DNA from: Bacillota bacterium
GTDB lineage: Bacteria; Bacillota; Sulfobacillia; Sulfobacillales; Sulfobacillaceae
Direction: 5' to 3'
DNA: 37,138 nt
Assembly (NCBI GenBank): GCA_021792935.1
Contig: JAJYTS010000009.1
Location: 1-37,138 of the forward strand
The notes under the pieces were generated by a model that saw only the letters and a program-made list of their open reading frames with translations, did not search any database and had not been told where the DNA came from. This document shows, in pieces, positions 26,772-29,198 of the stretch (position 1 is its first letter; the number at the start of each line of letters is the position of its first letter). Made by a program: the position numbers and the translations under genes.

Positions 26772-27797
26772 ATGAAAGCAATGGTATTTGAGGAATTTGG
26801 CGATGAAAGTGTTTTGAGCTTTCGGGAGGTTCCTACGCCCGAACCGGGTCCCGGTCAAGTTCGGGTCAAAGTGTCGCGAGTGGGTGTTAACCGCTTGGAT
26901 CTGATGGAGAGGCAGGGTTTGGTGGGAAAGTTGGCAATGCCCCATATCCCTGGCTCTGAAGTGGCCGGCGTCGTGGATAAAGTGGGGGCGGGCTCCGCTG
27001 TCGCTCCTGGGCTTCGGGTGGCGGTTGCCCCTTATTTGTTCTGCGGCCATTGCGAACCGTGCCTTAGCGGCGAGGAAAACGTGTGTGTCAGCAGCGATAT
27101 ATTGGGGCTTCGTTCAATGGGCGGCTACGCGGAATACGTCGTGGTCCCGGAATCCAGCCTCATCCCCATTCCCGATGGGGTCAGCGACAGCGCGGCCGCG
27201 GCCGTGACCTTATCCACCATTACCGCGTGGCATATGCTGGTGGAGAAGGTGCGTATCAATCCCGGTGACATAGTGCTGGTATGGGCGGCCGGGTCCGGTG
27301 TGGGCAGCGCCGCCATTCAAATTGCGCGATTGCTGGGGGCGAAAGTTATCGCCACCGCCGGCAGCGATGACAAGGTGAAGCGGGCCATGGATGAGTTTGG
27401 CGCCGACTGGGGTATTAATTATCGGAAAGACGATGTGGCCGCGGTTGTTCGGAACATTACGGCAAAGCGCGGTGTGGATGTGGTTTTCGAACATTTGGGA
27501 GCCGAGACCATGGCCACCAGTTTCAAATGTCTGGCGCGGGGCGGGGCGGTGGTAACATGCGGAACGCTTACCGGAACGCGTGCCGAGGTGGATTTGTGGC
27601 TGGTTTTTGCCAAACAGTTGCGCTTAATCGGATCCTATGGCGGAACCCGCAAAGACTTGGCGCGGGTTCTTCAATTGGTGGCGGATGGCCGTCTCAAGCC
27701 GGTTATTGACGAGGAAATTTCCTTGTCGGAAGCCGGGCGGGCGCAGCGCAAGATGGCTGAGCGTTCGCAGTTTGGGAAAATACTGCTGGTCCCTTAG
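26772..27797 (+). CDS. Zinc-lobe NADPH:quinone oxidoreductase / alcohol dehydrogenase-like enzyme
   Basis: Medium-chain dehydrogenase/reductase of 341 aa, probably a cytoplasmic NAD(P)H-dependent reductase. The N-terminal GroES-like domain carries the four structural-zinc cysteines (C91, C94, C97, C105 in CGHCEPCLSGEENVC). The usual catalytic-zinc cysteine and GHE motif are absent (NRLDLMERQG and GSEVAGVV instead), which is the quinone-oxidoreductase pattern. The Rossmann part has AAGSGVGSAAIQIARLLGAK. Substrate unknown. The ATG follows aaggggg. It has its own extended -10 promoter and is followed by the structured leader. Confidence 0.85.
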   Translation: MKAMVFEEFGDESVLSFREVPTPEPGPGQVRVKVSRVGVNRLDLMERQGLVGKLAMPHIPGSEVAGVVDKVGAGSAVAPGLRVAVAPYLFCGHCEPCLSGEENVCVSSDILGLRSMGGYAEYVVVPESSLIPIPDGVSDSAAAAVTLSTITAWHMLVEKVRINPGDIVLVWAAGSGVGSAAIQIARLLGAKVIATAGSDDKVKRAMDEFGADWGINYRKDDVAAVVRNITAKRGVDVVFEHLGAETMATSFKCLARGGAVVTCGTLTGTRAEVDLWLVFAKQLRLIGSYGGTRKDLARVLQLVADGRLKPVIDEEISLSEAGRAQRKMAERSQFGKILLVP

Positions 27798-27819
27798 TCG
27801 CCAGAAGACTAAAAATTTA

Positions 27820-27977
27820 CAGCCAAATTGTAGGAGATCATAGGTTGGCTGTCGAAACACTAGTTTGTCATCAATTCCTATGAACTATGGAATTACGACA
27901 GGGCCTAGAGAAAAGTCTTTGGACCCTGTCATTATTTTTTTGGAGGCGGGCAAGACTGATCCCCGTAAGGAGGGGTC
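27820..27977 (+). promoter_or_regulatory. Structured leader: candidate attenuator plus SD-sequestering hairpin
   Basis: Helices seen by eye are P1 27820-27826/27845-27851 (CAGCCAA/TTGGCTG); P2 27873-27878/27889-27894 (AATTCC/GGAATT); a terminator stem 27897-27903/27924-27930; and a last hairpin 27958-27964/27972-27977 whose 3' arm GGGGTC contains the Shine-Dalgarno of the next gene. An alternative helix 27849-27854/27896-27901 (CTGTCG/CGACAG) would use the 3' arm of P1 and the 5' arm of the terminator, that is, an antiterminator. This is the layout of a transcription attenuator combined with translational control. I do not match it to a known riboswitch or T-box. Confidence 0.5.
27897..27941 (+). 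terminator. Intrinsic terminator within the leader
   Basis: GACAGGG (27897-27903) pairs with CCCTGTC (27924-27930), with partial pairing continuing inside (CCTAGAGA / TCTTTGG). It is directly followed by attattttttt. It may end the oxidoreductase transcript, attenuate the next operon, or both. Confidence 0.75.
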
Positions 27978-28013
27978 GTTGCGCGCGGGAGAGAGTTTTG
28001 GAAGGATAACGCA

Positions 28014-29198
28014 TTGTTTGGCGTGGCCTCCCTAATGGCCGGTTTCTTTAACTACCTGTACCATGTGGTGCTGGCCCACGTGCTGGGTCCCGGCGATTAT
28101 GGCGATTTGGCCACCTTTTTAAATGTCACCACATTTTTAGTGCTGCCGGGGCCGGTCATTACTCTCTTGTATACCCGTATAGGGCGTCGGGAAAAGGGCC
28201 GGGGCAAAAGAGAGTCCTGGCTTTTATGGGGCGGGGGATTGGGGTTATGGGTGCTCTTAGCTTTTTTTTCCCCGGTTCTCGGCCAAATGCTGCATATCAG
28301 CTCCCTTCTTTTATTGGTATTTAGTCTTGAGGTCGTGCCGACATTCGCTCTGGCCGCCAATCTCGGCATCCTGCAACGAGTGCGCTGGTACTTGTGGGTC
28401 GGTGTGTTGACGGTGCTGATGTCCGCCTTTCGCGTTCTGGCCGCGGCCATCGCCGCGTTTTTGCGCATGTATCCCCTTCTTGTGGTTGGCTTGTTGGAGG
28501 GTTTGGCCGTATTTGTCACGTTCGCGGTAAGCCGCCGCTGGGCTGCGCGCGCTCCTTGGGCGGGCGAAGCGTTCAAGGCGGATGTAATTTCCGGAACCGC
28601 GGTGGTAGGGGTCATTAATGTATTGTTGGCTATATCGGATGGACTTTTAGCCAAACATTCGCTCAGTCCCTTGTCCGCGGGGCGGTTTACGGGGATGGCG
28701 ACTATCGGGCATACCATTCAATTTCTTTCGGGGAGTTTTGGCACGGTGATGCTGACCTCCATCATGGCGGATCCGGAACACCGCTTACGGTTTGTGGGAA
28801 TGACCTTATTGGTGTACGCCAGTTTGGGCGGGATCGGTCAGTTTCTTTTTCTCACGCGGGCGCGTTGGGTCGTGATGACAATACTGGGCCGCCATTTTGC
28901 GCCCATTGTGCCCTGGATCTCCTATTATGGATGGGGTATGATATCGCTAGGTTTCATAAATATTGCCATGCTGTACTCAGTGGCGTTGAAGCGCTGGGAG
29001 GTTATCGCCACCACCGGCCTAGGCTTAACCGCGTGGATTTGGCGGCTCTTGCGCGCCCACAGCGTGGGCAGCTTCGTCCGCGACACCACCAGCACCATGG
29101 TGATTATTCTGCTGGCGACCGTCATTATTATGGTGGTGGTGGAAATGCGGGGCGGCCAGTCTCATTGGAGAAAACGGGTAAGAATGTCGGGGGAATAG
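28014..29198 (+). CDS. Polysaccharide flippase-like membrane protein (MOP/Wzx type)
   Basis: Integral membrane protein of about 394 aa with some eleven to twelve helices. Its N-terminal helix region MAGFFNYLYHVVLAHVLGPG followed by DYGDLA is typical of oligosaccharide flippases of the MOP superfamily. The only in-frame start is TTG 28014 (aagga eight bases upstream). Without a start codon the frame continues upstream as EFWKDNALFG. A strong aaggagggg site precedes TTG 27979 in another frame, so one lost T in the run at 27996-27999 may have cut off the true N-terminus (see findings). The acyl-CoA ligase follows after 10 bases. Confidence 0.7.
   Translation: MFGVASLMAGFFNYLYHVVLAHVLGPGDYGDLATFLNVTTFLVLPGPVITLLYTRIGRREKGRGKRESWLLWGGGLGLWVLLAFFSPVLGQMLHISSLLLLVFSLEVVPTFALAANLGILQRVRWYLWVGVLTVLMSAFRVLAAAIAAFLRMYPLLVVGLLEGLAVFVTFAVSRRWAARAPWAGEAFKADVISGTAVVGVINVLLAISDGLLAKHSLSPLSAGRFTGMATIGHTIQFLSGSFGTVMLTSIMADPEHRLRFVGMTLLVYASLGGIGQFLFLTRARWVVMTILGRHFAPIVPWISYYGWGMISLGFINIAMLYSVALKRWEVIATTGLGLTAWIWRLLRAHSVGSFVRDTTSTMVIILLATVIIMVVVEMRGGQSHWRKRVRMSGE

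Follow-up and report, generated by a model that had tools for sequence, protein, structure and literature searches.

The interval and its genes

Upstream of a flippase/acyl-CoA ligase operon in a Bacillota genome lies a short stretch which the original prediction read as an attenuator-like leader, in which mutually exclusive helices and a buried ribosome binding site would respond to a signal. Is this stretch a two-way RNA switch, or an element of another kind? Comparison with 25 relatives puts the chances at about even that it is instead a small self-contained RNA gene. All coordinates refer to the window, i.e., the whole stretch of 37,138 nucleotides that was analysed. The interval between the dehydrogenase gene and the flippase-like ORF is 216 bases long and holds all the strings on which the prediction was built.

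26772 to 27797, forward strand: zinc-binding dehydrogenase/quinone oxidoreductase gene, upstream of the interval
28014 to 29198, forward strand: flippase-like membrane protein gene, whose frame probably opens near 27975 without a standard start codon
29209 to 30735, forward strand: acyl-CoA ligase (AMP-binding) gene, after the flippase gene

The flippase-like protein has no match in Pfam or NCBIfam. In the window, no ATG, GTG, TTG or other start codon of table 11 lies in its frame (27966 to 28014) from the in-frame TAA at 27966 up to the conserved FWKDN; the codons of this stretch are GGA, GGG, GTC, GTT, GCG, CGC, GGG, AGA and GAG. The flippase frame of genome G001 likewise has no table-11 start there. 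The protein begins either with a rare start codon or at the TTG at 28014. Positions 1 to 26000 of the window carry ordinary housekeeping genes (ffh, rimM, trmD, lepB, rnhB, a phosphate-type ABC transporter, a penicillin-binding protein, topA, trmFO, an xerC-type recombinase, hslVU and codY).

A conserved unit in one family

Of the 101 genomes searched, 37 gave a homologue of the flippase, and the upstream DNA was read for the orthologous group; further loci were gathered by pattern and with a covariance model. The comparison of these loci establishes the parts of a conserved unit, their order and their spacing. From 5' to 3', it consists of a 19-bp palindrome, a promoter, the motif TAAnnnGAATGAACYRY and an intrinsic terminator. 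Among 34 genomes of one Bacillota family, 26 carry the unit, each in a single copy, and these cover all 11 genera; 20 of the 26 loci have the palindrome, which lies upstream of the −35 element. The expectation that the element would be found upstream of homologous flippase/acyl-CoA ligase genes is thus borne out. The gene on the other side changes: in other genera a GH18 gene or a CpsB/CapC gene takes the place of the dehydrogenase. An additional, decayed copy in genome G025 has lost the promoter, the palindrome and the motif and retains the terminator and the operon.

The covariance model (R2) gives a single match per family genome and nothing convincing elsewhere among 151 genomes of the class. 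Matches outside the family (L132–L134) were discarded, being weak and showing no upstream promoter, as was an apparent second copy in G031, which falls inside a coding region; a second match in G027 is weak. A dispersed repeat or mobile element was rejected, the sequence being single-copy in its own genome, and a search of a plasmid collection with the element gave no match. The original prediction placed the RNA in no known class. Indeed, Rfam gave no match in the window at the gathering threshold (T-box, SAM, c-di-GMP, ZTP, ykkC and others); scans of ten homologous loci that allowed E values up to 5 were likewise empty at the element.

Other features were noted in individual loci. G008 (L024, 3163–3240) matches the fluoride riboswitch below threshold (27.9 bits against a gathering threshold of 34, E 7.5e-4). 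In G032 (L063, about 1700–1980), a direct repeat close to GTTTCAATTCCTTATAGGTAGGCTACACAC recurs at regular intervals and suggests a CRISPR array. G007 (L011, before 150) lacks the palindrome and has, immediately upstream, a GC-rich inverted repeat, CGCCCTTTAGGGCG, which is perhaps the edge of an insertion.

A sigma-H-type promoter

27794 to 27812, unstranded: 19-bp palindrome TTAGTCGCCAGAAGACTAA (consensus TTAGTCGTNANACGACTAA), probable operator, overlapping the stop codon of the upstream dehydrogenase gene
27830 to 27838, forward strand: −35 element GTAGGAGAT of the sigma-H-like promoter, AGGA invariant in 26 of 26 loci
27851 to 27859, forward strand: −10 element GTCGAAACA (consensus TGTCGAATA), GNNGAA invariant in 26 of 26 loci

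Sigma-H is a transition-phase/sporulation sigma factor, and its consensus of the Bacillus subtilis type is RNAGGAWWW at −35 and RNNGAATWW at −10, separated by 11–12 nt. Across the 26 loci the promoter reads GTAGGATTTT, then 11 or 12 nt, then TGTCGAATA, or in summary form GTAGGATTT-N11/12-TGTCGAAT, which fits. By consensus, the promoter therefore matches the sigma-H type. It resembles sigma-H promoters in both elements, in the spacing, in the presence of a sigH gene and in that further genes share it, and differs in a stricter −10, TGTCGAAT; the window's own −10 carries GAAA where the consensus has GAAT. A sigH gene (TIGR02859) scores above the NCBIfam cut-off in 28 of the 34 genomes, and the genome of the window, which is 60% complete, has only weak sigma-factor matches.

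With a sequence-only model of the region, the −35/−10 pair recurs at many other places in the genomes. The genes that follow it, of which 20 were examined, include ftsE/ftsX, several oligopeptide-binding proteins, amino-acid permeases, GntR regulators, cytochrome oxidase parts and a PAS-type sensor kinase. They were identified by eye from translations. Given the positions of the two elements, transcription should start near 27865.

The palindrome is essentially confined to this locus. It usually lies 16–17 nt from the −35 element; three loci, from related genera, have 27 nt instead, and L024 has 7 nt. In G014 (L064, G014:C92, about 1501–1570), it stands 7 nt from a sigma-H-like promoter followed by a gene for a membrane GGDEF diguanylate cyclase, without the RNA. 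The spacing by whole helical turns and the use of the palindrome without the RNA argue that it is a protein-binding DNA site, probably the operator of a DNA-binding regulator.

FapR was considered as the protein that reads it. The FapR operator is TTAGTACCTRNTACTAA, and the palindrome shares with it the TTAGT start, the ACTAA end and the lipid context; fapR is also encoded in these genomes. However, the palindrome is 19 bp long instead of 17, has a different centre and does not conform to TTAGTACCTRNTACTAA. FapR is not supported: its classical site hardly occurs in the family, and neither that site nor the palindrome was present in the upstream regions of fapR that were read, two in number.

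The predicted RNA and its terminator

27865 to 27941, forward strand: predicted short RNA of about 77 nt, its start set by the promoter (± 3 nt) and its end by the terminator
27866 to 27900, forward strand: local fold and possible antiterminator, TGTC (27866–27869) and AATTCC (27873–27878) pairing with GGAATT (27889–27894) and GACA (27897–27900)
27880 to 27888, forward strand: conserved motif ATGAACTAT, core of TAAnnnGAATGAACYRY, mostly unpaired
27897 to 27941, forward strand: intrinsic terminator, GACAGGG...CCCTGTC followed by a T-run

The terminator of the original prediction (arms at 27897–27903 and 27924–27930, T-run to 27941) is real and passes every test. Its own arms pair far better than arms swapped between loci (0 of 2000 swaps as good) while the sequence varies between genera, and alone it folds at z = −5.7. 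Against shuffled sequences, the 191 nt taken together reach z = −3.6, nearly all of which is due to the terminator: the 84 nt before it give z = −1.25, and the RNA body before it −0.5. In most loci, the nascent transcript as far as the terminator loop does not fold better than its shuffled versions.

The predicted RNA ranges from about 75 to about 115 nt across the genera and is longest where a 5' hairpin is added ahead of the motif. The arms of this hairpin covary in the genera with longer RNAs (z = 10 against shuffles, 0 of 2000 arm swaps as good). In the motif, TGAA is invariant (26 of 26) and the following C nearly so (24 of 26), before YRY. A leader peptide starting at the ATG of ATGAAC was rejected, because frames and stops are not conserved (short stops in L010 and L012) and four loci read GTGTGAA. 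A weak stem around ATGAAC is indistinguishable from a shifted control, and pairing of the motif with the first 250 nt of the operon is unremarkable. Matches to Hfq are weak, and most of this genus shows none, so that dependence on Hfq is not claimed.

Only in L007, L013, L014 and partly L010 is a fold like that at 27866–27900 predicted, with GACA taken from the terminator, and there it is not above shuffles. No antiterminator pairing conserved across genera was found, about 4 of the 26 loci having such a fold.

A proposed small RNA acting in trans

The reading that we prefer, with a probability near one half, is that of a sigma-H-dependent, intrinsically terminated RNA of about 75–110 nt which acts in trans. 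RNA polymerase carrying sigma-H, with the aid of a protein on the upstream palindrome, would start near 27865 and stop at the intrinsic terminator (27897–27941), releasing an RNA of about 77 nt in this genome. The unpaired UAAnnnGAAUGAACYRY just 5' of the terminator would be the active part, contacting a target RNA or protein. The flippase/acyl-CoA ligase genes would have, or could have, their own promoter, and might be a target or merely a stable neighbour. Transcription and its start site, the activator, the trans action, the role of the motif and any target are all inferred.

Several findings support such an RNA. The order of the unit is constant despite three different upstream genes, the element has a promoter and a terminator of its own, and TGAAC, invariant or nearly so, forms a conserved seed lying mostly outside predicted helices. 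The comparison also shows that the element is separable from the operon: G024 has the ligase gene and a promoter-like block in common with G026 and G028 and lacks the element, and G025 lost the promoter, palindrome and motif yet kept the terminator and the operon. Between G026 and G028, which belong to the same genus, identity is 82–93% in the element, 67–72% in the adjacent gene and about 53–70% in the spacer after the terminator. The sigma-H-type promoter, the phased palindrome, the maintained 5' hairpin and the lack of a conserved antiterminator pairing or an Rfam match point the same way. What counts against this reading is that the element is not independent of one neighbouring operon and always stands beside the flippase/ligase locus, which is unusual for a free small RNA and fits an element in cis. 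The conjectural operon promoter, the short gap between terminator and Shine-Dalgarno sequence, the unremarkable pairing of the motif and the weak Hfq matches also speak against it.

The main alternative: a possible terminated leader

27951 to 27959, forward strand: conserved block CAAGACTGA, 3' of the terminator (CAACACTGA in relatives)
27967 to 27975, forward strand: Shine-Dalgarno sequence AAGGAGGGG of the flippase gene, present in relatives too

The element lies between the sigma-H promoter and the operon, and a second promoter of the operon may follow the terminator. In most short-type loci, a CAACACTGA (or CACACTAA) block is found about 11–16 nt past the terminator; in genus g8, a different conserved block, AGTCARAATG, follows it. 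The block at 27951–27959 is possibly the −10 element of the operon's own promoter, the existence of which is a guess.

The constant neighbourhood suggests that the same parts could form a terminated leader. Sigma-H would then start transcription of the flippase/acyl-CoA ligase operon, most transcripts would end at the terminator, and a factor acting in trans (a protein or other) on GAAUGAACYRY would permit read-through; in the clade of the window, the antiterminator could be the hairpin that has GACA in common with the terminator. In 26 of 26 genomes the flippase and/or ligase gene comes directly after the element, although the gene on the upstream side differs and one of the two downstream genes may be absent (G008 has only the flippase, and G019, G026 and G028 only the ligase). 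Several genomes with neither gene, e.g., G002, G006 and G012, also lack the element. The possible antiterminators in four loci and the short distance from terminator to Shine-Dalgarno sequence in the window, only 25 nt, point in the same direction. On the other hand, no pairing that competes with the terminator is conserved across genera, the ligase gene persists without the element in G017 and G024, and in G025 it persists with the promoter and motif lost and the terminator kept. Leaders controlled by riboswitches, T-boxes or antitermination proteins resemble the element in having a promoter, a short RNA and a terminator before a metabolic operon, whereas the element has no Rfam match and no conserved antiterminator or aptamer, and it can be lost while the gene stays. 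The factor-controlled leader is the main alternative, a tentative one, and the small RNA, at roughly even probability, is favoured over it. Less probable still, and on balance unlikely, is a new class of terminated leaders in which, under sigma-H control, transcription of the operon would be decided by the binding of GAAUGAACYRY to a dedicated factor or to a lipid-derived signal.

A further possibility is that the RNA itself is inert, and that the locus consists of a regulated sigma-H promoter and a terminator which shields the operon from read-through. Of all the parts, the promoter, palindrome and terminator are best understood, and in G025 the terminator outlives the promoter and the motif. 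However, this would leave the invariant TGAAC motif, the 5' hairpin maintained in the RNA and the retention of a promoter ahead of the terminator without explanation, and we regard it as improbable.

The predicted switch

The strings of the proposed switch all exist: CAGCCAA (27820–27826) and TTGGCTG (27845–27851) of the helix P1, CTGTCG (27849–27854) and CGACAG (near 27896–27902) of the alternative helix, and GATCCCC (27958–27964) and GGGGTC (27972–27977) around the Shine-Dalgarno sequence. In shuffled versions of the 158-nt interval, at least one perfect 7-bp stem occurs in 32% and at least one 6-bp stem in 77%; the three 7-bp words observed are a count reached in 5% of the shuffles.

P1 brackets the −35 element and overlaps the −10, and hence should not be transcribed from that promoter; it could exist in transcripts coming through from the upstream gene. 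P1-like pairing is in weak excess (6 of 5000 permutations, z about 4), strongest in L007, L027 and L056. Since shifted control geometries reach a nearly equal z of 3.2–3.3 and P1 is absent from most loci, we treat it as not established. CTGTCG sits within the −10 element itself, and its pairing with CGACAG is at chance: when arms were swapped between species among 24 homologous loci, 1128 of 2000 permutations were as good. The hairpin said to mask the Shine-Dalgarno sequence varies in place and sequence in relatives, and in the window it folds at z = −2.1. Nothing supports the suggested lipid or glycan ligand. A riboswitch-like leader in which P1 and CTGTCG/CGACAG exclude each other and the Shine-Dalgarno sequence is masked has in its favour the strings and the weak excess of P1-like pairing, with good pairing in the three loci named, and is very improbable in view of the position and rarity of P1, the similar excess in controls, the chance level of the alternative helix and the shifting hairpin. 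What stands of the original prediction is a regulatory RNA before the flippase/acyl-CoA ligase operon, with its terminator and its conservation; the switch built from P1 and CTGTCG/CGACAG is not supported.

Relation to known RNAs and significance

Judged by the Rfam scans and the comparison of loci, the element is an RNA family new to Rfam, of a known kind. SpoX and SpoY of Clostridioides difficile are sporulation-linked small RNAs which base-pair with the spo0A mRNA, and SpoX has an 83-nt isoform ending at an intrinsic terminator (PMC10267692). The element is like them in that it would be a short, intrinsically terminated intergenic RNA tied to a sporulating lifestyle; no sequence relationship is implied. 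A literature search found no small-RNA study in this group of spore-forming Bacillota.

The locus also holds a lesson, namely that a hairpin read from a single sequence can be promoter DNA. For this group of spore-forming Bacillota, the element would provide a compact and testable new RNA family, which ties a sigma-H promoter and a putative palindrome-binding regulator to a lipid/polysaccharide-type locus.
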